Part shown: piece by piece, positions 105 to 19,570 of the stretch | Layout: each line of letters starts with the position of its first letter | How positions within the stretch are numbered: position 1 is the stretch's first letter | NCBI RefSeq assembly: GCF_004762035.2 | Contig: NZ_SIJK02000059.1 | Span: forward strand, 1-32,824 | From: Candidatus Chloroploca mongolica | GTDB lineage: Bacteria; Chloroflexota; Chloroflexia; Chloroflexales; Chloroflexaceae | Direction of reading: 5' to 3' | DNA length: 32,824 nt | Notes under the pieces: generated by a model | Database searches by the model: none | What the model saw: the letters and a program-made list of their open reading frames with translations, nothing else | What the model was told of the DNA's origin: nothing | Position numbers and translations under genes: made by a program

Positions 105-137
105 TTGGCGCACGGCCCCTTCGCCCGATCAGGGCTT

Positions 138-150
138 TTCAGACAGCCGC
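138..150. repeat. Solo copy of a MITE terminal sequence
   Basis: CTTTTCAGACAGC lies here, immediately after the TAA stop (minus strand, 151-153) of the adjacent gene. It matches the terminal inverted repeat of the MITE at 8761-8878. No partner repeat is visible in the window, so it may be a relic or the end of an element that continues to the left. Confidence 0.5.
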
Positions 151-2313: not shown

Positions 2314-2415
2314 GGGGTATTTCCTTCAACAGAACCCGACCAAAATCCCTCAAAGCATATATTAAACGATCAAATGCTTTTTGTTTGCAGATATTCGCTA
2401 CGTGTTTTGTTCGAT

Positions 2416-2444
2416 GAAAGACACCAGCTTTACTGGCATCTTTC
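2416..2444 (-). terminator. Possible hairpin terminator downstream of mutS2
   Basis: GAAAGA and TCTTTC arms enclose CCAG/CTGG around a CTTTA loop. It lies between the mutS2 stop (2480) and the start of the MBL gene (2313). No clear T-run follows on the minus strand, so the terminator role is tentative. The rest of 2314-2479 is AT-rich and probably carries the MBL gene promoter. Confidence 0.35.
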
Positions 2445-2479
2445 ACCCAACCAACACATTTCGTAGCCCAGGAAGGATT

Positions 2480-4987: not shown

Positions 4988-5063
4988 AGGACGTATGGTA
5001 CCACAGCCAGGCTGTGGGCACCTCATCCATAGGATTGATTTTTGGGGGCCTGCGGACTGATGC

Positions 5064-5210
5064 GCATGGGTTTTTAGGGCTGTCGCCCTAAAAACCCATG
5101 CTTGTGCTGGCGAAAACGGCCAGCGAAGCTGGCCGTTTTCGCCAGCACAAGCGAGATGCTTGGGGCCGCAGCCCCCCAAGCGTGGGTGTGTAGAGCGGTT
5201 GCCCTACAAG
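5064..5210. repeat. Cluster of perfect hairpins between hemH and mutS2
   Basis: A 16-bp perfect stem (5064-5079 with 5086-5101, loop CTGTCG) abuts a 24-bp perfect stem (5101-5124 with 5128-5151, loop GAA). A GC-rich mini-hairpin, GGGGCCGCAGCCCC, follows near 5161-5176. The tail GTTGCCCTACAAG resembles the flanks of the hairpins at 9901 and 15850-16080. It probably terminates hemH transcription incidentally. Confidence 0.85.
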
Positions 5211-6313
5211 CGCAGCTGACTGTTGTGCGCGAGCTCAACGGATTCCGGCGAGGCAACCGGATTGAGCAGGTTGCGACACTGGTCGCTGGTGCATCCGGGG
5301 CAGCGCAGGGGGTACTGGCGCGAGTGATTGCGCCCGCTTGCAAGGTGGTCAGCGACGAGATCAGCCAGGGTACGCTGAAAGTTTTCGTCGTCGTTGAGGG
5401 CAGGAACACGTTTGAAGTTGGTGATGCCGACGCGGTGAGCTAATTCGCCGTATTCATGGTCAATCTCGGCGAGCGTTTCAATGTGGTCACTCGTGAAAGC
5501 AATCGGGACAACGAGAACGTTGCGCCGCCCCTGCGCACCCAATTGCTTGATCACCTGCTCGGTCTGTGGCCCAAGCCAGCGCACTGGACCAACCGCCGAT
5601 TGGTAAGCAAGCAGATATTCGTACGCAAACCCAAGCCGCTCCATCACCGCCTGCACACTTGCACCAATCTCTTGGGGATACGGGTCGCCACGGTCAATGA
5701 TCTTGAGGGGCAGCGAGTGGGCGCTAAACAGCAAGAGCACATTGTCTCGTTCAGCGGCAGGAAACTGTTCCAGGCCAAGCTGCACGCTACGGGTCATTGC
5801 CTCGATAAAACCGGGATGGGTCGGCCAGCGGTCAATCACGCTCCAAGAGAAAGCGTTGCTGAGGCCGAGCCGCCGCGCTGCACGCCAGAGCTCGTTGAGG
5901 CTTGAGCCGGTGGTGGCGCAGGAAAACTGGGGATACTGGGTAAAAGCGACCGCACGTTGCACCCCATCGGCCTGCATCTGACGCAAGGCATCTTCGCTAA
6001 AGGGAGGCGCATAGCGAAAAGCGACATAAAACCGATGAGGGGCCGTCGCCGGCGAGAGCCGGTCGAGCCAACGGATCATGCCCTCGCCCTGGATGGTGGT
6101 CCAGCGCAAAATCGGTGAACCACCGCCAATGAGGCGATAATTCTCTTGCACGGCAGCGGTGCGTCGCCGTGCAATGAAGGGGCCGAGCCAGGCTTGCAGG
6201 GGCAACTGAATAATTTCGCGGTCAGCAAAGAGGCGAACGAGAAAAGGGCCGACTTCATCGAGGGTCGCTGGTCCCCCGAGGTTAAGCATCACAATGCCAG
6301 TCTGCACGGACAT
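5204..6313 (-). CDS. hemH: Ferrochelatase with predicted [2Fe-2S] site
   Basis: The product is 369 residues. It inserts Fe2+ into protoporphyrin IX (or coproporphyrin III) in haem synthesis. Family landmarks are LNLGGP at 11-15, YPQFSCATTGSSLN at 127-140, the catalytic His in SAHSLP (H199) and FTSDHIETLAEIDHEY from 273 with the catalytic Glu. The C-terminus carries CPGCTSDQC (C338, C341, C346). Together with C132 in FSCATTG this reproduces the C-x2-C-x4-C plus upstream-Cys arrangement of the [2Fe-2S] cluster of animal ferrochelatases. An AAAGGTAG ribosome site precedes the ATG. High haem demand fits the multihaem cytochrome genes nearby. GAGCGCACGCGCTC (about 6335-6348), a near-palindrome upstream, could be an operator. 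Confidence 0.95.
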   Translation of the reverse strand: MSVQTGIVMLNLGGPATLDEVGPFLVRLFADREIIQLPLQAWLGPFIARRRTAAVQENYRLIGGGSPILRWTTIQGEGMIRWLDRLSPATAPHRFYVAFRYAPPFSEDALRQMQADGVQRAVAFTQYPQFSCATTGSSLNELWRAARRLGLSNAFSWSVIDRWPTHPGFIEAMTRSVQLGLEQFPAAERDNVLLLFSAHSLPLKIIDRGDPYPQEIGASVQAVMERLGFAYEYLLAYQSAVGPVRWLGPQTEQVIKQLGAQGRRNVLVVPIAFTSDHIETLAEIDHEYGELAHRVGITNFKRVPALNDDENFQRTLADLVADHLASGRNHSRQYPLRCPGCTSDQCRNLLNPVASPESVELAHNSQLRL

Positions 6314-6417
6314 GAGCGAACTACCTTTGTATTGAGCGCACGCGCTCTTCTTCAGAATCTATACAAATCTTATCAAAACTATGCGTAGTATACCATATAT
6401 ATCGTAGGGCCGAAGCA

Positions 6418-6565
6418 CGCGTGGGGGCGGGGCGTGGGGGCACGGCGACGCCGTGCCCGTACGGGGGGCGGCAGGGGCACGAGCAAGCCGTGCCCGTACG
6501 GGCGGCGGTGCGTTGTAGGGGCACGGCTTGCCCGTGCCCTGCGTTGGTAGGGCACGGGCAAGGGG
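6418..6565. repeat. GC-rich palindromic repeats (GGGCACGGC type)
   Basis: This tract contains repeated GGGCACGG..CCGTGCCC palindromes separated by GTACGGG or GTAGGG. They are similar in design to the arrays at 19180 and 22530. Apparent open frames here are compositional artefacts. Confidence 0.75.
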
Positions 6566-6584
6566 GGCGGCGCGCCGTGTCACC

Positions 6585-6900
6585 CCGCTGCCGCTGCGCC
6601 CGCCGTGTCACCCCGCTGCGCCAGCCATGTCACCCCGAGCGCAGCGAGGGGTCTTCCATGCGCCACAGCGAAGATTCCTCACTCCGTTCGGAAGGACATG
6701 GCTGGCGTTGGCACCCCGCTGCGCGCCCTTGCCACCCCAAGGCATCCGCCCTGTCACTCCGAGCGCCCGCCGTGTCACCCCGCTGCACCAGCCATGTCAC
6801 CCCGAGCGCAGCGAGGGGTCTTCCATGCGTAGCAGCGAAGATTCCTCACTCCGTTCGGAATGACATGGCTGGCGTTGGCACCCCGCTGCGCGCCCCTGGC
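6585..6900. repeat. CACCCCGAGCGCAGCGAGGGG repeat block, copy set 1
   Basis: Two full units carry GAGCGCAGCGAGGGGTCTTCC, then GAAGATTCCTCACTCCGTTC, then GACATGGCTGGCGTTGGCAC. They are interspersed with short CGCC(G/A)TGTCACCCCGCTGC modules. The same family recurs at 28836-29225 and 32565-32824. The ends of each unit are partly complementary (ACCCCGAGCG with CGTTCGGAATGACA). It is non-coding. Confidence 0.85.
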
Positions 6901-6904
6901 CCTC

Positions 6905-7108
6905 TTGGGATACTGCTGGCAAACCCCAACTGAGCGGCACCCTGCGTTTTTCGGGTCGTCTTGCGTCGAGAAATTGCGCCTCGTGCGGCGTGGGCCACCA
7001 AGCGAGGTCGTCACAGCCCTCCTCCGCAAAAAACCGCAACGACGCTGTGGGGAGTACAGGCTCTCTGAGCGAAGGTCGCTCATCCAACGTTTGCCAGCAG
7101 TATCCCAA
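6905..7108. mobile_element. 204-bp MITE-like element with 20-bp perfect TIRs
   Basis: TTGGGATACTGCTGGCAAAC at 6905-6924 has its exact reverse complement at 7089-7108. The interior has no transposase and only spurious frames. The right end lies 18 bp from the stop codon of the glycosyltransferase gene. I could not identify a target duplication. Confidence 0.7.
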
Positions 7109-7126
7109 AAGGCACGGGCGGCGGAG

Positions 7127-9859
7127 CTACGGCCAGCGATAGCGCTGCCCTGGCGGGAGGCGCAAGGTTTCGGCCCCAAGTCGCCCGAGCATGACAGCGT
7201 CGTCGTCGAGGGGGTGTTCAAAGCGGGCATGGGTGGTCCATTGAACGATGCGATCACCCTGCCAAATTTCGCCACTCACCGGTGTGCCAGGCAGGGCGAT
7301 GCGTGCTGCGGCTTCGGCCATGGATGGGCAGAGACGTTCGTTCGCATCGTTTCCATCGCGACACGTGGTGCTCCGGCGGGTTTCACCGAGATAGAGGGTT
7401 GTCCCGGAGGGGCGCGGGGTCACTGCGTTGCCCCGGAGTTCGAGGCAGAGGCGCTCGAAACATTGCAGGCGCCCCCAGTCAAACGGGACGAGCGGCGTCA
7501 ACGGCCACCCGAGGCGCTCGAGGCCCCCCAGGTTTGTCCAGGCGGCCCACATAACCCCCGGCACCATATAGTCGGTTGCGGCGACATACTGCCCTCCCTG
7601 CGGCGCAACCGCGAGGGTCGTCGGCAAGATCACATCTGCTGATGCGCCTTTAGGATCAGCAAGGCTGACCTTGATCTGGTACGAGCCTGGCGGCAGATTC
7701 GTTGGCACAGCAAAGGGATGCATGTGTTGCACCGTCGCGTCGGTCGGCCAGCGCGATGGTGGATAGACCCCGTAGATCAATCGGCGTGTACTGGTTGCCA
7801 CAATGCCGCCATCGAGGGTGGTCAGGTCAACTACGACGCTCAGGTTATCGTTGGAAGGAGGCATAGCCGTGCGTTGCCAGAGCAGCGTCAGCGTCACCAG
7901 TTCACCCGGCTCGTAGATTTGCCCCACTGACGGCACAATGGCATAGCTCGTTAGACGCAAAGCCGTGTCGCCGAGGACAAGCTCGCCGTCAAGCGGGGAG
8001 GCGGGCCCGGTTGCAACCGGACGATAGAGATCGAAGGTGCCGAGCGAGCCGTCGTGCGCATAACGGCGCTGCACCAGTTCGACGACACCGGGGCTTAGCC
8101 AGTTGCCCAGGTAATCGAGGACCACCAGGGGCAGCGTGCCATTGGCGAGCTCGTGCAGCAACGCCGTTTCGTCGGCCAGTCCCTGATCAAGCAACTGGCG
8201 CATCTCGAACGCCTGCAGCCGTGAGGTCACCCCGGCGGCGGCGGCAACCCCGGGCATGTCGGTCAGCACCACCGGCCCCGCCGCTTGCACTGTCATCGTG
8301 AGCAGCGTACCAACCCTGGTCTGGGCCGCTAACACTTCGGCCTGCCGCCTTGCATCGGTCAGCAACCCATGACGCCCAAAGACGAACCGCGGCTTCAATG
8401 GCTCGACCAGACTGGCCGGGCGCAACTGGTCGGCGTGCCACAACGGCGGATAGTAGGCCAGTGCCAGCACAAGCAAGCCATAGAAGAGCAGGCCACGCCA
8501 CGGCAACCAGCAGCGTATCAGACTCGGCGCGAGCGCGATGAGCCAGATCAGGCCAGCGTAGAGTTCGAGGAAATAGTTGCTATACGCGCCAACCTTGCCC
8601 ACGCCAAGCGCGGTAAGAAAACCGGCGAGCGTATACAAGAGCGCGAGTTGGAACGACGAGCGCGGCCAACTGACCTCACCCCCTGGCTCCCGCTCGACAG
8701 CGGAGCAGGGGAGGGTTCGCGACGAGGATCTGGACGGCAAAGCATCCAGCTCAGCCTCAGAGGCTGTCTGAAAAGTCGACGGTTTGCTTCGGAGTGCCGA
8801 CTTTAGCCGGCTAAAGCCGGCACTCCAAGGGTGCATCACGTGGTGGCGAACGACACTGACACCCTTTTCAGACAGCCTCTCAGCGGCAGCCGCAACAGGG
8901 GCGCGGCGCATCAGAGATAGCCCGGCGAATACAACCAGCAAGGCCGCAGCCGCAAGCGCCCAGCGCAGGCGGATCTGCTGAGCCCAGAACTGCAGCGCCA
9001 ACTCGGCGTCCCAGCGATTCGCATTGGCCGCGACGACGTGCAGCGCAAACCAGCCCTGGCTCGCCCATTGCATTGCAAGCAAGGTGAGCCCGCCTGCCAA
9101 GCCGAGGGTCAACCCAAGCACCACCAGGCGGTAGAGCGGCAAGCGGTCGGCATAGCGACGGCGTCGCCTGCGCCCCGGTAGCGTCTGCCGAGCATCGATC
9201 AGACTTGGCAAGACCTGCCAAGCAAGCCAGGCCGAGGCGGCAACCGGGGCCGCAAGGAGTGACGGCTTGACAAAGAGACTCGCAGTCAACAAGAGGCCAG
9301 CGACGGCCACACGGCGCAGCGAGGGCAACGGCGGATGTACCAGCACCACCAAGCCCCAGAGCCCGAGCGCCAGACCGAGCAGGTCAACCCGCATGAGGGC
9401 CGACCATTCGCGGACAATTGGGATGGTAAGAAAGAGGAGCACAAGCAACCACGACGTACGGCGTACCGTAGGGGAAGCCGTGGTGGCCCCAGGGTGGGAC
9501 AGCCAGGCAATGGCCCCCATTGCGGCAAGCGTCGCAACCAGGGAAAGCAGGCGACCAGCGATCAACACCGACCCTGTCAGCGGCGTCAGCACCGCCGTAA
9601 GCACCAGGTAGAGCGGAGGATAATTGACAATCAGAAAAGGGGCGTTCTCTGGATCAGCATAGAGACGCCAAATCGGCACCCCAGCACGCAGGCGCTCGAC
9701 CTGAGCGACCAGAGGGCCTTCGCCATAGTCAAGAGGAAAAGGAAACGCCAGAAGCTGCCGCACATGCGCAGCAGCATAGAGCAGATAGGCAATCGCGAGC
9801 AACCCCAGCGCAACCTGGGCCACACGCACCAGCGAAGGACGATACAGCATACGGTGCAT
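7127..9859 (-). CDS. Large membrane protein, glycosyltransferase-39/PMT-like, with periplasmic C-terminal half
   Basis: The product is 910 residues. The first ~480 residues hold about ten hydrophobic helices and an early loop motif, DYGEGPLVAQVERL, near 43-56. Acidic residues in this first loop and a NYPPLYLVL segment are typical of dolichyl/undecaprenyl-phosphate-sugar-dependent GT-C glycosyltransferases. The C-terminal ~430 residues are soluble and probably periplasmic, with a beta-sandwich-like stretch (LTSYAIVPSVGQIYEPGELVTL onwards). A likely role is transfer of a lipid-linked sugar to a surface protein or glycan; donor and acceptor are unknown. Residues about 328-368 are encoded by an in-frame MITE. 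The following ~25 residues (SRSSSRTLPCSAVEREPGGE) are also low-complexity. The hydrophobic pattern resumes near 394. The MHRM start lies at 9859, with a later Met possible at residue 4. Confidence 0.75.
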   Translation of the reverse strand: MHRMLYRPSLVRVAQVALGLLAIAYLLYAAAHVRQLLAFPFPLDYGEGPLVAQVERLRAGVPIWRLYADPENAPFLIVNYPPLYLVLTAVLTPLTGSVLIAGRLLSLVATLAAMGAIAWLSHPGATTASPTVRRTSWLLVLLFLTIPIVREWSALMRVDLLGLALGLWGLVVLVHPPLPSLRRVAVAGLLLTASLFVKPSLLAAPVAASAWLAWQVLPSLIDARQTLPGRRRRRRYADRLPLYRLVVLGLTLGLAGGLTLLAMQWASQGWFALHVVAANANRWDAELALQFWAQQIRLRWALAAAALLVVFAGLSLMRRAPVAAAAERLSEKGVSVVRHHVMHPWSAGFSRLKSALRSKPSTFQTASEAELDALPSRSSSRTLPCSAVEREPGGEVSWPRSSFQLALLYTLAGFLTALGVGKVGAYSNYFLELYAGLIWLIALAPSLIRCWLPWRGLLFYGLLVLALAYYPPLWHADQLRPASLVEPLKPRFVFGRHGLLTDARRQAEVLAAQTRVGTLLTMTVQAAGPVVLTDMPGVAAAAGVTSRLQAFEMRQLLDQGLADETALLHELANGTLPLVVLDYLGNWLSPGVVELVQRRYAHDGSLGTFDLYRPVATGPASPLDGELVLGDTALRLTSYAIVPSVGQIYEPGELVTLTLLWQRTAMPPSNDNLSVVVDLTTLDGGIVATSTRRLIYGVYPPSRWPTDATVQHMHPFAVPTNLPPGSYQIKVSLADPKGASADVILPTTLAVAPQGGQYVAATDYMVPGVMWAAWTNLGGLERLGWPLTPLVPFDWGRLQCFERLCLELRGNAVTPRPSGTTLYLGETRRSTTCRDGNDANERLCPSMAEAAARIALPGTPVSGEIWQGDRIVQWTTHARFEHPLDDDAVMLGRLGAETLRLPPGQRYRWP
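8756..8883. mobile_element. 118-bp MITE inserted in frame, with 5-bp target duplication
   Basis: AGGCTGTCTGAAAAG (8761-8775) and CTTTTCAGACAGCCT (8864-8878) form perfect 15-bp terminal inverted repeats. The direct repeat CTCAG flanks the element at 8756-8760 and 8879-8883. Inside is the imperfect palindrome GGAGTGCCGAC...CCGGCACTCC (8791-8826). Element plus duplication adds 123 bp, exactly 41 codons, so the host gene stays open on the minus strand. Confidence 0.85.
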
Positions 9860-9911
9860 TATATACGATGCAGTGAAGGGTGTTTTATGTGCAAACTAAA
9901 GCCCTACAACC

Positions 9912-9966
9912 CATCGTGTCTTGAACAAACAGCCAGCAAAGTTGGCTGTTTGTTCAAGACACGATG
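9912..9966. repeat. 24-bp perfect-stem hairpin
   Basis: The arms are 9912-9935 and 9943-9966 around GCAAAGT. The apex AGCCAGCAAAGTTGGCT parallels the apex of the 5101-5151 hairpin, but the arms are unrelated in sequence. GCCCTACAAC at 9901 matches flanks of the other clusters. It lies just downstream of the PepSY gene (minus strand) and may act as its terminator, although no T-run follows on that strand. Confidence 0.8.
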
Positions 9967-9982
9967 ATTAAAAAAGGTACGG

Positions 9983-10450
9983 TTAATCATCATCGTCATC
10001 ATCGTCATCATCGTCGTCGTCTCCGCCATTGTCATTCATGGTTGCATTTCCGTTTGAGGTCGTGGTAGCGCCAGGGGTCGCGAGGATCTGGCTAGTGGTT
10101 GCATCCACATAGACGAGACCTGTGCTTAATGGAACTTCATAGGCAACGGCACCCTGATAGGTTACAAGCATAGGTGTGCCTGTGAGCGTAGCACCACTGC
10201 TATTGGCAACAGCAAGGCTAGCTGCTTGTTCCGCCGAGACCGGATAAGAGTCTGATGGATTTGAAGGTTGGAGGGTCGTTGGGCTTGTCATGGGCTGTGT
10301 GCCAATGGCCGTAGTCGCCTGGACGGGTGCCACATCAGTGGGAGTAGATGTCGTGCTAGAACCAGAGAAACCAGGGCCGAACACAGCAAGCAGAATGAGC
10401 ACAAAGGCAGTCACTGCTGCGGCGATAGCAAACAAAGCACGTTGGTTCAT
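9983..10450 (-). CDS. Membrane-anchored PepSY-domain protein with poly-Asp tail
   Basis: The product is 155 residues. After MNQR comes one hydrophobic helix (about 5-27), so it is exported and anchored. A Ser/Thr/Pro-rich stretch follows, then a PepSY-like domain at about 70-125 (SAEQAASLAVANSSGATLTG, AYEVPLSTGLVYVDATTSQIL). It ends in Gly plus 12 consecutive Asp residues. The ATG at 10450 is preceded by AAGGAG; the frame is open further upstream without a ribosome site. PepSY domains occur in peptidase inhibitors and in membrane oxidoreductases. The acidic tail could bind cations. It diverges from the redox operon across a shared 299-bp region, so joint regulation is plausible but unproven. 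Confidence 0.8.
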   Translation of the reverse strand: MNQRALFAIAAAVTAFVLILLAVFGPGFSGSSTTSTPTDVAPVQATTAIGTQPMTSPTTLQPSNPSDSYPVSAEQAASLAVANSSGATLTGTPMLVTYQGAVAYEVPLSTGLVYVDATTSQILATPGATTTSNGNATMNDNGGDDDDDDDDDDDD

Positions 10451-10643
10451 AAGAATGAAGCTCCTTACTAGAATGATATGTGAGCCTACTCTACAACTCT
10501 TTCCTTGGAAGCACATTGGAAAGCATCACGTCATATTCCAAGGTTGCTCACAGGAAAAGGGTGGCGAGGCAGGTGAAGGATCGTCAGCACAGATCGATAA
10601 GGTTGCTTCACCATAGATTATCACTCCGTTACCAAGATCATCA

Positions 10644-10664
10644 AAATTCCAAGCAAATTCCAAG
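10644..10664. promoter_or_regulatory. Two helically phased direct repeats, candidate operator
   Basis: AAATTCCAAG occurs at 10644-10653 and 10655-10664, an 11-bp period (about one helical turn). A related TATTCCAAGG lies near 10533-10542. All are in the divergent region between the PepSY gene and the redox operon. They are a candidate binding site for a regulator of both units. I could not fix a promoter here. Confidence 0.4.
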
Positions 10665-10749
10665 TAACTGGTGCTACGCTCAACAGAGAAGTCATAACTA
10701 TCGTACAGGCGGCCACAAACAATGTCGCCCATGCGAGAGAGAGGTTTTG

Positions 10750-11010
10750 ATGACATTCGTAGCACGATCCCTCACCCTGGATCTCATCAGGGCCGAGGTG
10801 CTTGCCACAGGACAGGTCGTTGCCGACTCGGTGCGCTGTGTCCAGTGTGGTATCTGCTCTTACAACTGCCCGATCGGTCTTGACGTACGAGCCTACGTCT
10901 GGTGCAGCGCAGCGATTGAAGATTCACGCTGCCTTACCTGCGGGCAATGCATCGCCCGCTGCCCACGAGGTGTGCTCCGTTTTGCACCAACGGATCGCTC
11001 GCGTGCGTAA
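10750..11010 (+). CDS. Two-cluster [4Fe-4S] ferredoxin / HdrC-like protein
   Basis: The product is 86 residues. Two motifs are complete: C-x2-C-x2-C-x3-CP at C30, C33, C36, C40 (CVQCGICSYNCP) and at C61, C64, C67, C71 (CLTCGQCIARCPRG), with an extra C52 between. The 20-residue spacing and the CPRGV ending resemble heterodisulfide-reductase HdrC and related electron-transfer subunits more than classical 2[4Fe-4S] ferredoxins. It is soluble and probably cytoplasmic. The ATG at 10750 follows a purine-rich GAGAGAGAGG site. The stop lies 17 bp before the flavoprotein start, so it is the first gene of the operon and the probable electron relay between the flavin and the membrane cytochrome. Confidence 0.88.
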   Translation: MTFVARSLTLDLIRAEVLATGQVVADSVRCVQCGICSYNCPIGLDVRAYVWCSAAIEDSRCLTCGQCIARCPRGVLRFAPTDRSRA

Positions 11011-11027
11011 CAAAGAGGAAGAATCTA

Positions 11028-12350
11028 ATGGGCCTGCGCTATGTTATTGTCGGAGCGGGCGTAGCTGGCATTGCCGCTGCCGAATCGTTACGCACCCGTG
11101 AGCCGTCGGCCAGTGTTACAGTCGTTACTGACGATCCTGCGGGTTTCTATTCGCGTCCCGGTCTCGCCTATTATCTCAGTGGGCTTATACCAGAGACGCA
11201 ACTCTTTCCTCGCTCGCCCGCCGAGTTGCGTGCGCTCGGCTTGACCTGGGTGCAGGCTCGGGCTGATGCGCTTGATCCGCGTACGCATCGCCTGACCCTT
11301 GCTGATGGGCAAATCCTCGCTTATGACAAACTGCTTCTCGCCACGGGTGCGCGTGCAGCCTTGCCCGACTTCCCTGGGAGCGACCTCGACGGCATCGTCA
11401 CCCTTGATAGCCTTGCCGATACCCGTGGCATTGTGCGCCGTGCGCGTCAAGGTCTGCAAGCCGTTGTTGTCGGTGGTGGCATCACCGCCCTGGAAATTGC
11501 CGAGGGCCTCAATGCGCGAGGGTGCCGGGTTCACTACATGCTGCGCGGGGCGCGTTACTGGGCCAATGTGCTCGACCCCGATGAATCGCAACTTGTCGAG
11601 GATCATCTTCGTGCTACAGGGATCATCCTTCACCATCATAGTCAGATACGTGAAGCGATCGGCAAACGCGGTCGCCTTGTCGCGGTCGAGACCATGACTG
11701 GCGAGCGCATCCCGTGTGAGTTGTTGGCCGTCGCGATTGGCACGCATCCACGGCTCGATCTTGCCCAGAGCGGTCGACTCAAGCTCGACCGGGGCATTCT
11801 GACTGACGCCTACCTCAAGACGAGCGCTGAGGATGTTCTGGCGGCTGGTGACGTCGCCCAGGTCTACAATGAAGTGACGGGCAAAGCGACGCTCGACACA
11901 CTCTGGGCAACTGCCCGGGCGCATGGGGAAGCTGCTGCGGCCACGATGGCAGGCATCCCCACACCCTACCGCAGTGCCGTAGCGCAGAATGTTACCTTGC
12001 TCGCTGGTATCCCCACAACGATCATCGGGTCTGTGGGTGGTGGAGAGGATGCAGATCTCGTAGCAATTGCCCGTGGTGATAGCGAAACCTGGCGGATGGC
12101 TGCCTCAGCGTGGGTCGTTGTGGATCCACATCCGGTCAATCGCCTACGCCTGATGCTTGGTGAGCAGACTCTCAAAGGGGCGCTTGTGATGGGGGATCAA
12201 ACGCTCTCGCGGCCACTACAGCGGCTGATTGCAGCCAACGCCGATCTTACGCCTATTCGTCAAGCCCTCCTCGCTGATAAGAGCGCCGTTGCGGACCTCA
12301 TCATGTCGTTCTATGCTGAATGGGAGCAGAGTCATGCAGACAAGCGGTGA
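11028..12350 (+). CDS. FAD/NAD(P)-dependent oxidoreductase
   Basis: The product is 440 residues. It belongs to the rubredoxin-reductase/NADH-dependent nitrite-reductase-like branch of the pyridine nucleotide-disulphide oxidoreductases. The FAD Rossmann motif GAGVAG is at 9-14, ATGARA at 105-110, the second nucleotide motif VVGGGITALEIAEG at 147-160, and the FAD-closing LAAGDVAQ near 285-292. A dimerisation-like C-terminal region follows. No redox-active CxxC pair is visible, consistent with direct flavin-to-carrier transfer. AAGAGGAAG precedes the ATG at 11028. Its stop overlaps the next gene by 17 bp. It probably exchanges electrons between NAD(P)H and the iron-sulphur protein upstream; direction cannot be read from sequence. 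Confidence 0.9.
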   Translation: MGLRYVIVGAGVAGIAAAESLRTREPSASVTVVTDDPAGFYSRPGLAYYLSGLIPETQLFPRSPAELRALGLTWVQARADALDPRTHRLTLADGQILAYDKLLLATGARAALPDFPGSDLDGIVTLDSLADTRGIVRRARQGLQAVVVGGGITALEIAEGLNARGCRVHYMLRGARYWANVLDPDESQLVEDHLRATGIILHHHSQIREAIGKRGRLVAVETMTGERIPCELLAVAIGTHPRLDLAQSGRLKLDRGILTDAYLKTSAEDVLAAGDVAQVYNEVTGKATLDTLWATARAHGEAAAATMAGIPTPYRSAVAQNVTLLAGIPTTIIGSVGGGEDADLVAIARGDSETWRMAASAWVVVDPHPVNRLRLMLGEQTLKGALVMGDQTLSRPLQRLIAANADLTPIRQALLADKSAVADLIMSFYAEWEQSHADKR

Positions 12351-13194
12351 ACTGCCACTACCTCGGGGGCGACGGCCGCCGCGCCATACTACCTATGAAC
12401 TGGAGATAGCCGTCATTGGGGTTGGAGCGGTCACAGCTTGCTATGTCTGGGCCATGCAGCGCCTTGACACCGCCCCTGGCGCCTTCTTTGGTCACAGCCT
12501 GGGTGTGATCGGCTTTCTTCTCATGCTGGCTACCGAAACCCTCTACTCGCTACGCAAACGGGCACGCGGGCGCACCTATGGACGGCTGAGTACCTGGCTT
12601 CAGTGGCATATTGTTATGGGCATCGTGGGTTCGTATATGGTGGTGTTGCATACGGCCTGGCGGTTCAATGGACTGGCTGGTGTCGTCACCTTACTCACGG
12701 TCGTGGTTGTTCTGAGTGGCTTCGTGGGACGTTATGTCTACACAGCCATTCCCCGCAGCGTGGATGGTGCCGAGCTATCGCTCGCCGATCTCACGGCTCG
12801 CCTGACCGCAAGTGCGACGCGTCTAGAGACGCTAGCCCGTCCTGGCTCGGCCTTACGTAATCTACCATCCGCCGATCTGCTTACGACACCACCACCTGTT
12901 CCTGGTGGCCCACTCACGGCACTGCTCGCCCGTCCGCTCCTTGCCTGGCGCGACCGAGCCGAGCAGCAACGTCTCCTTGCCACGCTTGGGATCATCGATC
13001 AAGCAACGGTCGTCGAGATCCGCCATACGTTAGCCGAGCGCCAGCGGCTCTTGCGGCAGATCCAATCCCTCGCCGTTGCACGCCGCCTGCTGGCTCTCTG
13101 GCATACCATCCATATCCCCCTCGGAGTGGCCCTGTTCGCTCTGGCATGTGTGCATATTGGTGCCGCGCTCTACTACGCGACACTGTTGCATTGA
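12334..13194 (+). CDS. Putative di-haem membrane cytochrome b
   Basis: The product is 286 residues with five predicted membrane helices: about 25-41, 52-70, 91-110, 114-135 and 258-282. A soluble helical insert of about 120 residues (140-255) precedes the last helix. H92 and H106 in helix 3 and H260 and H274 in helix 5 are each 14 residues apart. This is the classic arrangement for two stacked b-haems shared by two helices. H54 and H257 are additional candidates. No match to a named family is evident. The ATG at 12334 overlaps the flavoprotein end, and GGGAG precedes it. A role in moving electrons across the membrane to the downstream cytochrome c is inferred. Confidence 0.7.
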   Translation: MQTSGELPLPRGRRPPRHTTYELEIAVIGVGAVTACYVWAMQRLDTAPGAFFGHSLGVIGFLLMLATETLYSLRKRARGRTYGRLSTWLQWHIVMGIVGSYMVVLHTAWRFNGLAGVVTLLTVVVVLSGFVGRYVYTAIPRSVDGAELSLADLTARLTASATRLETLARPGSALRNLPSADLLTTPPPVPGGPLTALLARPLLAWRDRAEQQRLLATLGIIDQATVVEIRHTLAERQRLLRQIQSLAVARRLLALWHTIHIPLGVALFALACVHIGAALYYATLLH

Positions 13195-13205
13195 GGAGGC
13201 TGGTG

Positions 13206-14456
13206 ATGCGTCGTCTTGGCTGTCTTACACCCTTTGGCATTATCGCCGGGATTGCTGCTATGGTTGCTGTCGTGATCGCCTGGATGCTTGGTGGGGGCAG
13301 TATGTTCAGCCCTGGCCCCCTGAATGCCCAGGGGCGGATTGGTGTACCACTTGGCGGCGTTACTTCACACGCTGCACTCGGTGGGAATTGTGCTGCTTGT
13401 CATACCAACCCGCTCGATACCCGTGGCATGGCCGGTCTTTGTCTCGATTGCCACACCGACATCCAGGCTCAACTCACCAGCCCTGACACCCTGCACGGTG
13501 CCTTGCCCGACGGGGGAGCTTGTTTGAGTTGTCACACCGAACATGGCGGACCGACTGCTGCTCTCACGGAAATGGAGCTCACGGCATTCCCGCACGCTGC
13601 ACTTGGTTTCGCGTTGACTGCTCACCAGTACACCAGCAATGGGTATGTTTTTGCCTGTGACGATTGCCACACTGCGCTGAAGATTACCCCGCGACCAATC
13701 AATGCCTATCGTTTCGATCAGGCGATTTGCATCGACTGCCATATGGACTACCAGGCTGATTTTGTCGTCTCACACGTTGCTGATTTTGGTACAGAGTGCC
13801 AAAACTGCCATGACGGGATTGATCGCTTCAGCGGCTTTGACCACAATACCCTGACAGTTCCTCTCGCTGGCAAGCACGGCGAGGCTACGTGTACGAGTTG
13901 CCATGGTGAGGTACGCGATGTTGCGAGTTTTGTCGGTCTTGCTACTACTTGTGTCGGTTGCCACCAGACCGATGACATCCATAATGGCACCTACGGTAGT
14001 GACTGCGCGAGTTGTCATACCCCGGCTGGTTGGGAGCAGGCGACCTTCGATCACAGTCGCACCGCCTTCCCACTTACCGGTGCCCACATCGCGACACCTT
14101 GCACAAGTTGTCACAGCAACCATATCTTCCAGGGTACACCCACGGATTGCGCATCATGTCACGCCGAGCCACAGGTTCACCTGGGACAGTTCGGCACGAA
14201 TTGCAACAGTTGTCACACGACGAGCCGTTGGGAGGGGGCCATCTTTGATCATACCTTCCCGCTGAACCATGGCGGTGAGGGCACAATTGCGTGTGCGACA
14301 TGCCACACGAACCCGCAACAGTATACCGTGTATACCTGCTACAACTGCCATGCTCATCCACAGGCTGCCACACTTGCCGAACATCGTGAGGAGGGAATTT
14401 CAGGCACTATTGATGACTGCGCTAGCTGTCATCCTACGGGGCACGAGGGTGACTAA
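13206..14456 (+). CDS. Membrane-anchored 15-haem cytochrome c
   Basis: The product is 416 residues. An N-terminal hydrophobic segment (about 8-28, no obvious signal-peptidase site) anchors a periplasmic domain with 15 CxxCH haem-attachment motifs: CAACH, CLDCH, CLSCH, CDDCH, CIDCH, CQNCH, CTSCH, CVGCH, CASCH, CTSCH, CASCH, CNSCH, CATCH, CYNCH and CASCH. Many further His residues suggest bis-His ligation as in cytochrome c3/c7-type wires. Repeats of the form FDH..FPL..H..CxxCH (around 'FDHSRTAFPLTGAHIATPC' and 'FDHTFPLNHGGEGTIAC') point to internal duplication. The start at 13206 has GAGGAGG 6-7 bp upstream, overlapping the previous stop. It is the last gene of the operon and the presumed outer electron conduit. 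Confidence 0.93.
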   Translation: MRRLGCLTPFGIIAGIAAMVAVVIAWMLGGGSMFSPGPLNAQGRIGVPLGGVTSHAALGGNCAACHTNPLDTRGMAGLCLDCHTDIQAQLTSPDTLHGALPDGGACLSCHTEHGGPTAALTEMELTAFPHAALGFALTAHQYTSNGYVFACDDCHTALKITPRPINAYRFDQAICIDCHMDYQADFVVSHVADFGTECQNCHDGIDRFSGFDHNTLTVPLAGKHGEATCTSCHGEVRDVASFVGLATTCVGCHQTDDIHNGTYGSDCASCHTPAGWEQATFDHSRTAFPLTGAHIATPCTSCHSNHIFQGTPTDCASCHAEPQVHLGQFGTNCNSCHTTSRWEGAIFDHTFPLNHGGEGTIACATCHTNPQQYTVYTCYNCHAHPQAATLAEHREEGISGTIDDCASCHPTGHEGD

Positions 14457-14499
14457 ACGACCATGCTATGTTTGTTAAGGGCACAGCTCCGTATCGCTC

Positions 14500-14549
14500 T
14501 TTTCTCGTGGTTGGTGGCAGCTTTTCGCCGCCACCAACCACAAGAAAAC
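14500..14549. terminator. Bidirectional terminator between convergent genes
   Basis: The stem GTGGTTGGTGGC (14507-14518) pairs perfectly with GCCACCAACCAC (14530-14541). It extends outward with TTTTCT and AGAAAA. The flanking T-run on one side and A-run on the other suit termination of both the cytochrome operon (plus) and the acyl-CoA dehydrogenase (minus). Confidence 0.8.
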
Positions 14550-14583
14550 GCTTCTTCGAGACACAGGAGTGGCACAGCAAGCT

Positions 14584-15753
14584 TTAGCGTCGGTTGACGC
14601 GGTAGCCAACCTGCTTGAGCAACTCGCTGGCGATGACGCTCTTCTGGATCTCGTTGGTGCCCTCAAAGATACGGGTGACCCGCGCATCGCGGTACATCCG
14701 CTCGAGGGGCACTTCACGTGAGAAGCCCATGCCACCGTAGATCTGGATGGCTTCGTCAATTACCTGGCTCGCCATCTCGGTGCAGTAGAGCTTGACGATG
14801 CTGCTTTCGAGCGTCGCATTTTTGCCATCATCAACCTTGCGTGCGCAATCGTAGACGATCTGCTCCATCGTATAGATCTTGACCGCCATTTCAGCAAGCT
14901 TAAACTGGATCGCCTGCAAATCGGCGATAGGGCGACCAAACTGGTGACGCTCGATCGCATAATTGCGACTGAGCTCAAACGCCTCTTTCGCTGCCCCAAC
15001 ACTGCTGCCACCAAGCCCGCAACGCCCGATATCGAGGGTACGCATGGCAACCTGAAACCCATGGCCGACGCCACCAAGCACATTCTCGGCTGGCACACGC
15101 ATATCCTCAAAGAAGAGGCTTGCGGTATGCGACGCCTTCAGGCCCATCTTGTCCTCGACCTTGCCCACATGGAAACCAGGGAAGTCCTTCTCAACGATGA
15201 ACGCGGTGATCCCACCACGGGCACCTTTGGTCTTGTCGGTCACAGCATGCACAATGATCACATCGGCGAAACTGCCATTGGTGATCCACATCTTCTGACC
15301 ATTGATGACCCACTCATCGCCACGCAATTCGGCGGTTGTACTAAGATTAGCCGCATCACTGCCCGCGTTCGGCTCGGTCAACGCCCAAGCCCCCACGAGA
15401 CGGCCCTCATTCATCGGGCGCAGGTACTTGTCCTTCTGGGCCTCATTGCCCCCGAGGTAAACACTCATCGCAGCAAGCTGCGCATGCGCCCCAAAGATCG
15501 TCGCATGGCTAGCACAGACACGGTTCAACTCTTCCATCAGCACACAATAGCCCGTGATGCCCATGTCAAGCCCGCCATACACTTCGGGGAACGGCACACC
15601 CAACAAGCCCAACTCGCCGGCTTTCTTAAACGTCTCTAGCGGTACCCGCTCCTCTTCATCAACCTCACGGGCGATAGGACGGATCTCCTTATCCACGAAC
15701 TCGCGCACCGTCTGACGCAGCATCTTGATCTCATCACTGTGCTCGTACTCCAT
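14584..15753 (-). CDS. Acyl-CoA dehydrogenase
   Basis: The product is 389 residues, normal for the short/branched-chain acyl-CoA dehydrogenase family. It uses FAD to make a 2,3-enoyl-CoA. Signatures are ALTEPNAGSDAANLST (family motif 1), WITNGSFADVI, QFGRPIADLQAIQFKLAEMA (motif 2) and YRDARVTRIFEGTNEIQ near the C-terminus. The catalytic-base Glu sits in the usual position (E364). Chain-length specificity cannot be read. The ATG at 15753 follows GAGGAGG; an upstream extension to 15837 lacks a ribosome site. No ETF genes are adjacent, so it appears to stand alone. Confidence 0.93.
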   Translation of the reverse strand: MEYEHSDEIKMLRQTVREFVDKEIRPIAREVDEEERVPLETFKKAGELGLLGVPFPEVYGGLDMGITGYCVLMEELNRVCASHATIFGAHAQLAAMSVYLGGNEAQKDKYLRPMNEGRLVGAWALTEPNAGSDAANLSTTAELRGDEWVINGQKMWITNGSFADVIIVHAVTDKTKGARGGITAFIVEKDFPGFHVGKVEDKMGLKASHTASLFFEDMRVPAENVLGGVGHGFQVAMRTLDIGRCGLGGSSVGAAKEAFELSRNYAIERHQFGRPIADLQAIQFKLAEMAVKIYTMEQIVYDCARKVDDGKNATLESSIVKLYCTEMASQVIDEAIQIYGGMGFSREVPLERMYRDARVTRIFEGTNEIQKSVIASELLKQVGYRVNRR

Positions 15754-15854
15754 TGTCGAGGCCTCCTCTTGATGCGGTAGTGATACCGCTGCTGTAGTGA
15801 TGCAGCCTCTCTGGCTGCGCCTGGTTGTTGTGTGCAAGGCCGAGCCCTGCCTGC

Positions 15855-16090
15855 CGTTGCGTTCGAGGGCTTCGCCCCCACATCCCTACTGCTTGTCTGG
15901 CAACAGGCCAGCTACACTGGCCTGTTGCCAGACAAGCAAACATTCCTGGGGCTGTCGCCCTACGATCCCATACGTATGCCGACTGTTTTCACCAGCATAC
16001 GACGCGAGTTTCCGGGGGCCGCAGCCCCCCACGAAACAACTTGTTAGGGCGGTAGCCCTAACCATACTGGGCCGACGGCCCGGATGCAAT
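15855..16090. repeat. Hairpin cluster between acyl-CoA dehydrogenase and CocE-type gene
   Basis: The main hairpin has 21-bp perfect arms, 15891-15911 with 15917-15937, and apex GGCCAGCTACACTGGCC. Around it are mini-hairpins GGGCTGTCGCCC (near 15950), GGGGGCCGCAGCCCCC (near 16014), TTAGGGCGGTAGCCCTAA (near 16045) and GGGCCGACGGCCC (near 16070). The block shares its modules with 5064-5210. Confidence 0.85.
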
Positions 16091-16093
16091 GCA

Positions 16094-17869
16094 TCATGGT
16101 GTTGCAACCTCCTGGAGTTGCTCGCCTGCCATCGCCTGCCTGGTCGCCTCGCTGACAACGGGGAGAAGCAGAACGGAGGGATGCTCGGCGTCGTGAAAGA
16201 CCATTTGTTGGGCACGGAGTCCCGCAGGAACCGCGTCGATCAAGGCCCGTCCATCCCCACTATTGACATTCCAGCGGGGGTGAGCCCCACTACAGATATG
16301 CAAGCGCAGGCGTTGTCCGGCATGAAAACGCCGTGCTGTTGCCCAGAGATCAAGTTCAAGCCGGAGGCTGCCGTCAGGTTGACGCTCACCGACACCCGGC
16401 TCAACCCGGATGGCACCCTCGCAGACATTGATGCTCCGCCCATCAGGGTCAACCGCGCAGAGACGCCCGACGAGATCGAAATAGGCCAGATTGGAACGAA
16501 CAAAAACCTCGAGGCGCACATAGCCAAGCACATCCAGCGGCGCTTCGAGCGGCGCACTGGTAAAGAGCAACACATCGTGGCGTGCCTCAACACGCGCCTG
16601 GTTACGCGCCCCACCATCCGGGCTCAAGACCGGCCCGCCAACCGAAGGCGTTGGATCGTGCGGATCATACTCGAACGATGAAGCGGGAGCCTCTTGCGCC
16701 CTGGTTTCACGCAACCAACCCCCGGCGTGCAGATAGAACCGCTGCAATTGCGCCGGCGGAGGCCAGAAATCCATCTCGTGCGTTTCGTGCGCCCCTAACA
16801 GCGCCAACCGTACGGCCCGTCGGCGCGGCACGTCACGCCCGCGCAAGAGCGCATCAAACCAGACCAACCCCTCGCGGACAGACGCGCCAAGGATGCTCTT
16901 GGAGGTATGGTGTCCGGCGAGCACCGTGAGATAGGGCCGCGCATCAGCAGCCAGCAAGTCGGTATAATCGGCAAGTTGGTCACGCAGGAAAATGTCGTAC
17001 CACGCAGCAACCAGATGCACAGCCGGCGTCACCCGCGCAAGCGAACGATCAAAATCCACCCTGGACCAATAGGCCCCATCAGGGCCTGGCTCGGCGAGCC
17101 ACTGCTGAAAGAAGGGCTGCACCGCCCCGGTCGCCCGGCGATCGGCTTCAGCGAGCGGAGCCGAAGCCAGCGTCGCCGCCAGGGTCGCCTCGCGCTGCGG
17201 GCGCAACACCCGCACCAGGGCAACCAGGTCAAGCGAGCGTCGGTTGGTTGCCTCGAGATAGGTTGCCCAGCGCAGCGACGACTCATAGGCAAACGGGCCA
17301 CCCGGATAGAACGAATGCGAAAAGCGGCTCGTCGCAATCACCGGCATGATCGCCTTGAGAAACGGCGGCGCATCGGCGGCCACGGCCCACTGGGTATAGC
17401 CAAGATAACTTGGCCCCCACATCCCCAGATTGCCCTCGAACCAGGGCTGGGCAGCGATCCAGTCCAACGTCGTGCGGCCATCCTCCTGCTCGTGGACAAA
17501 AGGCTCAAAGACCCCGCCCGAACGAAACCGCCCACGCACCCCCTGCACCACCACATTGTACCCACGCTCAGCAAAGAGCGCTGCCCCCATCAAACCACCC
17601 GGCCCGAGCAACCGAGTCTCGGAGGGGCGACCATAGGGCGTGCGGATCAAAATCGTCGGAAACTGCCCGCTAGCACGCGGAAAAAAGCGATCCGCATAGA
17701 GCACCGTGCCATCGGGCATTGGCACAGGCAGATCATACTCGACGGCCACCGCATATTCGGGTGGGCGCAAACCAAACGCACGAGCGATGATCTGGCGACG
17801 CCTGGCATAGAGCCCCGCGCCAACCAATCCGAGCCCGGCTATGCCGATGGCCGCCAGCGAACGCCGCAT
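16094..17869 (-). CDS. CocE/NonD family serine hydrolase (peptidase S15-like)
   Basis: The product is 591 residues. An N-terminal hydrophobic helix (about 4-22) followed by RRR suggests a membrane anchor or signal. The alpha/beta-hydrolase core has the nucleophile in GPSYLGYTQ (Ser154), the acid in VAAWYDIFLRDQ (Asp292) and the His in LAGHHTSKS (His320/321). The C-terminal jelly-roll domain (about 360-591: GPVLSPDG, LLFTSAPLEAPLDVLGYVRL) is typical of CocE and X-Pro dipeptidyl peptidases. It should hydrolyse an acyl ester or N-acyl bond; the substrate is unknown. The ATG at 17869 is preceded by AGAGGAAG. A strong promoter lies 137 bp upstream at 18006-18035, so it has its own transcript. Confidence 0.9.
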   Translation of the reverse strand: MRRSLAAIGIAGLGLVGAGLYARRRQIIARAFGLRPPEYAVAVEYDLPVPMPDGTVLYADRFFPRASGQFPTILIRTPYGRPSETRLLGPGGLMGAALFAERGYNVVVQGVRGRFRSGGVFEPFVHEQEDGRTTLDWIAAQPWFEGNLGMWGPSYLGYTQWAVAADAPPFLKAIMPVIATSRFSHSFYPGGPFAYESSLRWATYLEATNRRSLDLVALVRVLRPQREATLAATLASAPLAEADRRATGAVQPFFQQWLAEPGPDGAYWSRVDFDRSLARVTPAVHLVAAWYDIFLRDQLADYTDLLAADARPYLTVLAGHHTSKSILGASVREGLVWFDALLRGRDVPRRRAVRLALLGAHETHEMDFWPPPAQLQRFYLHAGGWLRETRAQEAPASSFEYDPHDPTPSVGGPVLSPDGGARNQARVEARHDVLLFTSAPLEAPLDVLGYVRLEVFVRSNLAYFDLVGRLCAVDPDGRSINVCEGAIRVEPGVGERQPDGSLRLELDLWATARRFHAGQRLRLHICSGAHPRWNVNSGDGRALIDAVPAGLRAQQMVFHDAEHPSVLLLPVVSEATRQAMAGEQLQEVATP

Positions 17870-17996
17870 GAGATCTTCCTCTGATGAAAATAGGAAAGAT
17901 AGGGTAGGGAAAACGAGAACCCTGCCCTCTTGAACCTGCCCTGGGAAAAAGCATCCCGGCTTTCTCACAAAGCGTATGACAAATATTACACGGTGC

Positions 17997-18035
17997 GTTA
18001 TAAAAAGTATAACAAATACCTATGAGACCTGTCAA
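17997..18035 (-). promoter_or_regulatory. Sigma70-type promoter with palindrome over the -10
   Basis: On the minus strand, TTGACA (18030-18035) and TATACT (18006-18011) are separated by 18 bp. The inverted repeat GTTATA-N5-TATAAC at 17997-18013 covers the -10 box and could be a repressor operator. It should drive the CocE-type gene. Confidence 0.7.
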
Positions 18036-18055
18036 GCCATAAATAACGCAGAGTG

Positions 18056-19135
18056 TCAATTTGCCTCAAATTGCTCAAAGGCGAGCCCATAGGTACGGGC
18101 GGGAATATCACCAAGCGTTGTCGGCCAGAGGCCCGTCACGGCGCGGGTGATCTTGCCGGCGTGGTCGTGACAATTTTCGATAAAGAGCGAGTAGCGCTGC
18201 TGAACACCCGCCGCCACTGTGCCTGCGACATACACACCGGGGACATTCGTCTCCATTGTTTCGGGATCAAACCGGGGAACCCGATTCGAGCCTTCGAGCA
18301 ATACGCCCACCTCTTCGAGCAGGCTCTGGTCGCCGCGAAAGCCGGTTGCCAACAAGACAAAATCGGTCGCGTGGCGCAGCGTTGGGCCAGGCACTGGTTC
18401 GCCGTCAACGGTACGCACGAATTCAACATAATCAGGCGTAATCGCCACCGGCATCGTTTCGGGCAAAAAACGGATCGTCCCGGCTTCGATCTGGGCCAGC
18501 AGATCGGGCATGAGCCAGTGCTTCACCCGGCGCTCATCAAAGGTCGCACGCCGATAGCTAATCGTCACCTGGGCACCGGCCCGCCAGCAACGGAGAGCGG
18601 CTTCGACGGCGGAATTTTTGCCGCCAACAATCAGCAACCGGCGCCGAAAATAGTCGTGCGGATCACGAAAATAGTGACTCACATGGGGCAGATCCTCACC
18701 GGGAAGATCGAGGCGAAGGGGCCAGTGCATATCGCCAATCGCAAAGACCACCCGTACCGCCTGATAGGTGCGTGGCCCGGTGCGATGGCTCGTCTGCAGC
18801 GTAAATGCCCCGACCGAGCCAGTCACGCTGGTCACCGGCTCGTAGCTATTGATATGCAGGTCAAACTGCTCGACGACCGCCCGCAGATAGGCCAGATACT
18901 CTTCGCCGGTCGTGCGTTGCTGATGATTATTGGGGATCGGCACCCCCGCAATCGCAATGCGCTCGCTCGTACTAAAAAAGGTTGTCTGGCGCGGCCACCA
19001 GGTCATCGTATGACCAATCTGACCCACATCGAACTGCACATAGCGTACCCCTCTGAGCTTGAGACAAACGGCGAGTTCAAGGCCAATCGGCCCGGCGCCA
19101 ATAATAGCGATGTCGTACGGTTGCTGCGTAGGCAT
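18056..19135 (-). CDS. YpdA/Bdr-like flavoprotein (putative thiol-disulphide reductase)
   Basis: The product is 359 residues. FAD motif GAGPIG is at 13-18, the YpdA-like [17 protein letters not shown] at 52-68, NADPH motif [13 protein letters not shown] at 169-181 and ATGFRGD in the last third. YpdA of Firmicutes reduces bacillithiol disulphide using NADPH. FFSTSE and GGKNSA are shared with that family, but the low-molecular-weight thiol of this organism is unknown. No catalytic CxxC is present, also as in YpdA. The ATG at 19135 is preceded by AGGAAAGGAA; upstream DNA is palindromic repeat, so the longer open frame to 19417 is rejected. It is transcribed toward the CocE-type gene but separated by that gene's promoter. 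Confidence 0.85.
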
Positions 19136-19157
19136 GATGTGTTCCTTTCCTGCATAG

Positions 19158-19570
19158 TTATTGCATCTTCCGTGTATGCACCCCGCCAGGGCACCCGCAA
19201 GGGCTGCCCCTACACCGGCCCCGCCCAGGGCACCCGCAAGGGGTGCCCCTACACCCGGCCCCGCCCAGGGCACCCGCAAGGGGTGCCCGTACACCCGGCC
19301 CCGCCCAGGGCACCCGCAAGGGGTGCCCCTACACCGACACCGGGCCCGGCCCCCGGCCCCGCCCAGGGCACCCGCAAGGGGTGCCCGTACACCCGGCCCG
19401 GCCCAGGGCACCCGCAAGGGGTGCCCCTACACCGACACCGGGCCCGGCCCCCGGCCCCGCCCAGGGCACCCGCAAGGGGTGCCCGTACACCCGGCCCGGC
19501 CCCTGTAGGGGCACCCCTGGCGGGTGCCCCTACAGGGGGCGGGTGCCCCTACAGGGGGCGGGTGCCCCGT
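19158..19570. repeat. Array A of GGGCACCCGCAAGGGGTGCCC palindromes
   Basis: About eight near-identical palindromes, GGGCACCCGCAAGGGGTGCCC with the last base slightly variable, are spaced by TACACCCGGCCCCGCCCA-type linkers. Two longer linkers carry GACACCGGGCCCGGCC. Degenerate TAGGGGCACCC...GGGTGCCCCTACAG units close the array. The left edge (TTGCATCTTCCGTG, about 19159-19173) and the downstream GATGCAATCGCCCTG (about 19653-19667) recur at the edge of array B. I see no gene in 19136-19687. Confidence 0.85.

Follow-up and report, generated by a model that had tools for sequence, protein, structure and literature searches.

How electrons from cytoplasmic carriers could reach multihaem cytochromes (MHCs) at the surface of Chloroflexota cells is a question raised by four adjacent genes of Candidatus Chloroploca mongolica. 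Large MHCs are described in this phylum, with electrode activity for one isolate, and the accessible parts of these reports name no inner-membrane entry point for the electrons (PMC7399161, PMC3971608, PMC5808234). We analysed a stretch of 32,824 nucleotides of contig NZ_SIJK02000059.1 (the window), in which the genes for proteins P0001 to P0004 lie at 10750-14456. A first-pass annotation of the window had proposed that these closely spaced or overlapping redox genes encode a trans-membrane electron-transfer module. All four were located on the plus strand, and conservation, synteny, ligand layout and topology supported the proposal. The cassette is conserved and real, and is a variant of known trans-membrane haem conduits. 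We think it probable that the four products form one membrane redox complex, similar to a split ferric reductase or NADPH oxidase (NOX) wired to a multihaem cytochrome.

The four genes are kept together in many other Chloroflexota

One genome per species (84,980 species) was scanned with a pattern derived from the cytochrome b, P0003, a search that finds close relatives only. This yielded 26 loci, all titled as Chloroflexota groups (12 as Anaerolineae, Anaerolineales, Anaerolineaceae or Anaerolinea, and 7 more only as 'Chloroflexi bacterium'). Genes for the iron-sulfur (FeS) protein, the flavin adenine dinucleotide (FAD) protein and cytochrome b followed one another in this order in 24 loci, the exceptions, L026 and L038, beginning at a contig edge. 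A multihaem gene came next after cytochrome b, again in 24 of the 26, and the two exceptions (L018 and L019) end inside the cytochrome b gene. The first MHC after cytochrome b contained 15 to 33 motifs where complete, and two MHC genes were found in succession in L022, L031, L036 and L038. L028 and L030 lie on a single contig, as identical copies in opposite orientation.

In a sample of the phylum, the cytochrome b profile matched 49 of 400 genomes and 25 of 222 genera. Twenty-four of these genomes matched at E<1e-50 (L039-L062); they include the window's own locus, and the sample overlaps the 26-locus set, so that the counts are not independent. An MHC relative was present within 1.5 kb of cytochrome b in all 24, and a FAD relative in 23. 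The exception, L062 (seen more widely as L075), has all four genes in the order cytochrome b-MHC-FeS-FAD, and this retention in a different order suggests a functional unit rather than mere inherited order. The first-pass annotation had recommended a synteny search across the phylum, and had staked its reading on the genes occurring together elsewhere and on the cytochrome b histidines being conserved. The genes co-occur in other genomes, and the histidines are retained, as described below. As a separate observation, G001, a congeneric genome with a listed completeness of 100%, gave no cytochrome b match, indicating patchy presence within the genus.

P0003 has paired histidines in helices 3 and 5

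A protein of Ca. Chloroploca sp. Khr17 shares 97% identity with P0003, whose nearest relatives in a cytochrome b tree are labelled Oscillochloridaceae. P0003 contains the histidine pairs noted in the first-pass annotation, H92/H106 and H260/H274, each 14 residues apart and correctly numbered there. These four residues, as well as H54 and H257, were invariant in an alignment of the 26 cytochromes b. In a wider set of 39 homologues (31 MHC-linked and 8 MHC-less), the four paired histidines were kept in 39/39, while H54 and H257 were present in 31/31 MHC-linked and 0/8 MHC-less proteins. This count includes L076 as MHC-linked and leaves out L084 (cytochrome b profile E 2.2e-7), which is devoid of H260, H274 and any FeS or FAD neighbour and is not a convincing homologue.

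P0003 has an insert of about 100 residues between transmembrane helices (TM) 4 and 5, missing from 17 rows (L020-L037) of the 26-sequence alignment. In a model of the full protein (mean pLDDT, the predicted local distance difference test score, 71.2), part of this insert ran on into TM5 to give a single long helix, and a fold search with this model was uninformative. We therefore modelled the short homologue L037 (mean pLDDT 80.8; predicted template modelling score 0.73), and found the histidine pairs in helix 3 and helix 5. Six Lys/Arg residues are present in the TM2-TM3 loop of L037 and six in the TM4-TM5 loop, compared to one in each loop on the opposite side. These charges place the TM2-TM3 and TM4-TM5 loops inside, with H92/H260 towards the cytoplasmic side and H106/H274 towards the outside. 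P0003 likely holds a di-haem b-type core.

Haem histidine pairs in TM3 and TM5 define the ferric reductase domain (FRD) family (PMC3591440), and the inner haem is assigned to the first histidine of each helix (PMC8228183, PMC3591440). In NOX2 the pairs are described as H101/H115, 14 apart in TM3, and H209/H222, 13 apart in TM5 (PMC8228183). All 39 homologues retained here have their pairs in TM3 and TM5, with 14/14 spacing. In ligand layout, P0003 would thus work like an FRD protein, with sequence scores that lie below the family cut-offs.

The first-pass annotation had found no match to NarI, DsrM or CymA, and we concur: none of NarI, DsrM or NapC-CymA appeared among the Pfam (E<=1) or NCBIfam matches of P0003, P0004 and the 26 cytochromes b, although both databases hold such models. 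The histidine arrangement of ferric reductases and NOX fits P0003 better than any of the complexes named in that annotation. Two weak sequence matches of P0003 in the PDB to glucose-6-phosphatase (E 0.063 and 0.22) were judged to be due to chance.

The putative cytoplasmic partners, P0001 and P0002

The cysteines of the two cluster motifs of P0001 (residues 30, 33, 36, 40, 61, 64, 67 and 71) were at least 95% conserved in 29 FeS rows. A ninth cysteine, at residue 52, was seen in the window and L013 only among these rows. The score of P0001 against HdrA2 was 23.8 bits (cut-off 1100), one of many generic Fer4 matches among the best 25 of 101 NCBIfam families.

P0002 matched Pyr_redox_2 in Pfam with an E value of 4.1e-50, and its best NCBIfam match was the PadH equivalog NF045765 (173.3 bits, E 7.5e-51), below the cut-off of 475. 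Shortly after its second nucleotide-binding motif, GGGITALE, is R173, which was at least 95% conserved in 32 rows. NADH enzymes often carry an acidic residue after the second nucleotide-binding strand. The conserved arginine at this position hints at NADPH rather than NADH as the donor. Since C166 and C230 are the only cysteines in P0002, the protein has no redox-active cysteine pair close in sequence.

P0004 is an anchored 15-haem cytochrome

P0004 contains exactly 15 CxxCH motifs, as the first-pass annotation had counted, and a hydrophobic N-terminal segment, recognised by eye, at the place of the membrane anchor that it had described. Shuffling the protein 10,000 times gave 0.17 motifs on average and 3 at most, and the 15 motifs are therefore not due to chance. 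Eighteen further histidines are present beyond the motifs, so that bis-His ligation of 15 haems is possible by number. A Gly-Cys pair precedes the hydrophobic segment (at about 13206-13229) in 29 of 30 MHC rows, as Leu-Gly-Cys in 25. Being upstream of the hydrophobic stretch, it is not a lipobox; its cysteine is a conserved residue on the cytoplasmic side. BLAST matches among CxxCH-rich proteins may be inflated, and we therefore take the shared N-terminal segment as the better sign of homology between the MHCs.

A PDB sequence search with P0004 gave no match at 0.001, and its score against HmcA (NF045713) was 26.2 bits, below the cut-off of 400. Pfam Cytochrome_C7 was found in the host genome in P0004, its copy on a duplicate contig and two five-motif proteins. 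A DNA pattern for CxxCH, applied to the whole genome, produced 581 matches compared to 397 in the control, and was too unspecific to be used.

The first three genes occur without the cytochrome c

From the 25 genomes with weaker matches in the phylum sample, 10 were opened. Eight (L077-L083 and L085) carry FAD, FeS and cytochrome b genes in that order, with both FeS motifs. No listed neighbour in these loci has more than one CxxCH, and a search of the eight genomes with P0004 revealed no relative in any of them (8/8). The FAD-FeS-cytochrome b module can stand without the cytochrome c.

In a 40-row cytochrome b tree (midpoint-rooted, long branches flagged, L084 included), the MHC-linked members lie on one side of a branch whose support, 91/89, is under the starred level; midpoint rooting does not settle which of the MHC-linked and MHC-less states came first. 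H54 and H257, confined to the MHC-linked proteins, may form a b-to-c contact or an extra redox site.

The MHC-less relatives, which keep FAD, FeS and cytochrome b, as well as the resemblance of the ligand layout to that of ferric reductases, also speak for a reductase at the cell surface that serves iron acquisition or redox defence and not respiration, the MHC being an electron buffer. Cytochromes with 15 to 33 motifs, and in 4 of the 26 loci a second MHC directly after the first, would in our judgement be a large investment for assimilation, and we consider this function improbable.

A putative path for electrons from NAD(P)H to the cell surface

Gene linkage, cofactor motifs, ligand conservation and the free-standing FAD-FeS-cytochrome b module were observed directly, and are consistent with the following path. 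The FAD of P0002 would accept hydride from cytoplasmic NAD(P)H, and would hand electrons one at a time to the pair of [4Fe-4S] clusters in P0001, a step suggested by the gene pair and the PadH-like flavoprotein. The clusters would reduce the b haem on the cytoplasmic side of P0003 (H92/H260), from which electrons would move to the outer b haem (H106/H274) and on to P0004, with its anchor and 15 haems, at the outer face of the membrane. Chloroflexota are thought to lack outer membranes. If this is true of the host, P0004 could extend into the cell wall in the direction of a partner cytochrome or of an acceptor outside the cell; other Chloroflexota are said or presumed to be without an outer membrane (PMC7399161, PMC5808234). 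We tentatively propose, at somewhat less than an even chance, that the cassette encodes a quinone-independent, split NOX-type reductase, in which electrons of NAD(P)H travel by way of FAD, a pair of [4Fe-4S] clusters and two stacked b haems directly to a surface multihaem wire, and that the FAD-FeS-cytochrome b module joined the MHC together with H54 and H257.

The direction of flow has to be considered as well. MHC chains can run in both directions. Electrons from Fe(II), sulfide or partner cells could enter through the MHC and be driven by the membrane potential to NAD(P)+, as reductant for a phototroph, and the two PF00124 (Photo_RC) proteins encoded in the host genome make a light-driven potential likely. 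Outward flow is downhill in redox potential and is favoured by the membrane potential, whereas inward flow needs energy. On general bioenergetic grounds, the inward route would have to climb in redox potential and oppose the membrane potential, and locus names do not link the cassette to phototrophs, the titles of 12 of the 26 loci being of the Anaerolineae type and those of 7 'Chloroflexi bacterium'. Inward flow therefore appears quite improbable.

A number of observations weigh against the proposed reductase. In L032 the FAD and cytochrome b genes are 0.7 kb apart. The FAD frame of L071 looks broken and no FeS motif was found there; FAD as well as FeS relatives are present in L059, which belongs to the same genus. 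In L076, where cytochrome b adjoins an 8-haem gene, neither a FAD relative nor a CxxCxxCxxxC motif was found in 11 kb, which weighs somewhat against a fixed four-part unit and indicates that the b-to-c step may not always need FAD or FeS. The match between H54/H257 and MHC linkage amounts to one change on the tree, and is therefore a lead and not a correlation of independent events.

The family assignment of the cytochrome b adds to these points. PF01794 was matched at E<=1 by 4 of the 26 cytochromes b (best E 0.11), below its cut-off; L072 reached E 0.0061 and 17.0 bits, compared to a cut-off of 28. PF01292 (Ni_hydr_CYTB) was the commoner weak match, at E<=1 in 26/26, every score seen falling below its cut-off of 30.1 (best in L037, E 1.8e-6, 28.3 bits). 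For most of nine short members with coordinates seen, the PF01292 match was almost full-length; in P0003 itself its best stretch was confined to residues 248-282. Profile-profile comparison (hhalign) with proteins of the class, five of them from PF01292 and eleven from PF01794, gave nothing significant. The best result, A3 against PF01794 (E 0.0085, probability 4.7%), aligned the TM3 H-14-H portion and was not used as proof of homology. Foldseek gave no match to the PDB at E<=0.001 with either the P0003 or the L037 model. In favour of the proposal, the matches listed by VIA-align for the L037 model included CybB/superoxide oxidase (Z 9.8; 135 aligned, 3.9 A), STEAP4 (Z 8.7; 155, 5.2 A), SpNOX (Z 8.5; 118, 3.4 A), cytochrome b561 (Z 8.4), Dcytb (Z 8.0) and cytochrome b6 (Z 7.8), with designed and unrelated helix bundles tying at similar Z; values below 13 are not decisive for helical bundles, and absence from the top rows does not exclude a family.

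The main rival is a quinone-linked system, in which cytochrome b would either oxidise menaquinol and feed the MHC, as CbcL does, or be the site at which FAD-FeS reduces quinone, the MHC being a side exit. The PF01292 family includes quinone-reactive members, and its weak similarity extends to all 26 cytochromes b. The invariant extra histidines H54 and H257 could sit at a quinone site, and in L076, where neither FAD nor FeS was found, cytochrome b has an 8-haem gene as its neighbour. The description of CbcL is that of a bc-type complex in which menaquinol is oxidised at low potential (PMC12307469). On the other side, both FAD and FeS accompany cytochrome b in 24 of the 26 loci (two are cut by contig edges) and in 8/8 MHC-less loci. 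The five PF01292 proteins compared (A4) have invariant histidines in two early helices, two histidines 14 apart in a late helix and one in a loop (helices assigned by eye), unlike the two-plus-two layout found here. We regard a quinone-linked role as unlikely, and continue to favour the split reductase wired to a multihaem cytochrome.

Gene layout and neighbouring sequence

The spacing of the genes is operon-like (Table 1): 17 bases separate P0001 from P0002, P0002 and P0003 overlap by 17 bases, and 11 bases separate P0003 from P0004.

Table 1. Positions in the window of the four genes and of the motifs and residues discussed
Feature	Position	Strand	Remark
Four-gene cassette	10750-14456	+	operon-like spacing
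P0001, predicted 2x[4Fe-4S] protein, 86 amino acids	10750..11010	+	several Fer4 families over cut-off
First cluster motif, C30-C40 of P0001	10837..10869	+	CxxCxxCxxxCP
Second cluster motif, C61-C71 of P0001	10930..10962	+	CxxCxxCxxxCP
P0002, FAD/NAD(P)-dependent oxidoreductase, 440 amino acids	11028..12350	+	Pyr_redox_2; PadH/NirB/ferredoxin-reductase-like
Second nucleotide-binding motif GGGITALE of P0002	11472..11495	+
P0003, cytochrome b, 286 amino acids, five predicted helices	12334..13194	+
H54 codon, start of TM2	12493..12495	+	MHC-linked members only
H92 codon, TM3, proposed inner-haem ligand	12607..12609	+
H106 codon, TM3, proposed outer-haem ligand	12649..12651	+
H257 codon, one turn before H260	13102..13104	+	MHC-linked members only; Arg in 8 others
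H260 codon, TM5, proposed inner-haem ligand	13111..13113	+
H274 codon, TM5, proposed outer-haem ligand	13153..13155	+
P0004, 15-haem cytochrome c, 416 amino acids	13206..14456	+	Cytochrome_C7 and c3-type repeats
Hydrophobic N-terminal segment of P0004	13230..13289	+	by eye; after MRRLGCLT
Span of 15 CxxCH motifs	13389..14432	+

A small, divergent gene at 9983-10516 on the minus strand, with a run of Asp at the end of its product, had no Pfam match at 0.001; proteins that look like it by eye adjoin the cassette in L013, L014 and L015. A small membrane open reading frame near the cassette of L037 (9696-10208, minus strand) resembles DUF4405-type cytochromes b by eye. Positions 56-19309 of the window are repeated on a second contig (G000:C134, L092) with 1 mismatch in 19,254 bases. 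This is likely a redundant contig, a recent duplication being the alternative. Segments at about 6.6-6.9, 28.9-29.2 and 32.6-32.8 kb, and also at 19.3 and 22.6 kb, show matches of about 83-96% with the duplicate contig's copies of one another, and such dispersed repeats may explain the contig ends.

Comparison with known systems

The present analysis adds to the first-pass annotation the residues H54 and H257, the FRD-like layout, and the recognition of the first three genes as a module that occurs without the cytochrome c. With a conserved unit of four genes, whose donor side in the cytoplasm is defined, the entry into extracellular electron transfer (EET) in Chloroflexota becomes testable gene by gene. 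If the proposal is true, this entry could bypass the quinone pool, and a phylum thought to be without outer membranes would have an extracellular electron route of its own.

P0003 resembles FRD proteins (NOX, FRE, STEAP, YedZ/MsrQ) in the position of its ligand pairs, on the third and fifth helices with a spacing of 14 in TM3, in the inner and outer haems that these would hold, and in its predicted use of a cytoplasmic donor for electrons sent outside. It differs in its TM5 spacing (14, compared to 13 in NOX2) and its five predicted helices, and shows no significant sequence match. In the cassette, the FAD/NAD(P) part stands on its own as a Pyr_redox_2 protein, paired with a 2x[4Fe-4S] protein, and the partner on the outside is a 15-haem cytochrome c. 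Likeness to prokaryotic cytochrome b561 (PF01292) lies in the weak profile match, the ligand layout of the five proteins compared being different. PadF and PadH of phenylglyoxylate dehydrogenase also constitute a FeS and FAD pair, theirs in an NADH-dependent enzyme; unlike them, the pair in the cassette adjoins a membrane cytochrome b, and P0002 scores far below the PadH cut-off.

Anaerolineales genomes from bioanodes encode large MHCs with variable haem number, for which EET was suggested; the accessible part of that description, on which our comparison is based, does not mention FeS, FAD or cytochrome b partners (PMC7399161). Both anodic and cathodic EET are described for Ardenticatena (PMC5808234). 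Clusters that combine cytochromes b, or FeS and anchor proteins, with MHCs were considered and set aside, the gene set as described in the part available differing from that of the cassette (PMC9386147). We did not find this operon described in a search of the open-access literature, subscription papers being outside its range.

CbcL contains its b and multihaem c domains in one protein, while those of the cassette are encoded by separate genes, P0003 and P0004. CbcL, as well as CbcBA and ImcH, of Geobacter sulfurreducens are like the cassette in that membrane cytochromes hand electrons to multihaem c. CbcL and ImcH are described as menaquinol oxidases, with no FAD or FeS partner named in the accessible text (PMC12307469). 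CbcL is the nearest known point of entry to that proposed here, but one that is fed by menaquinol (PMC12307469).

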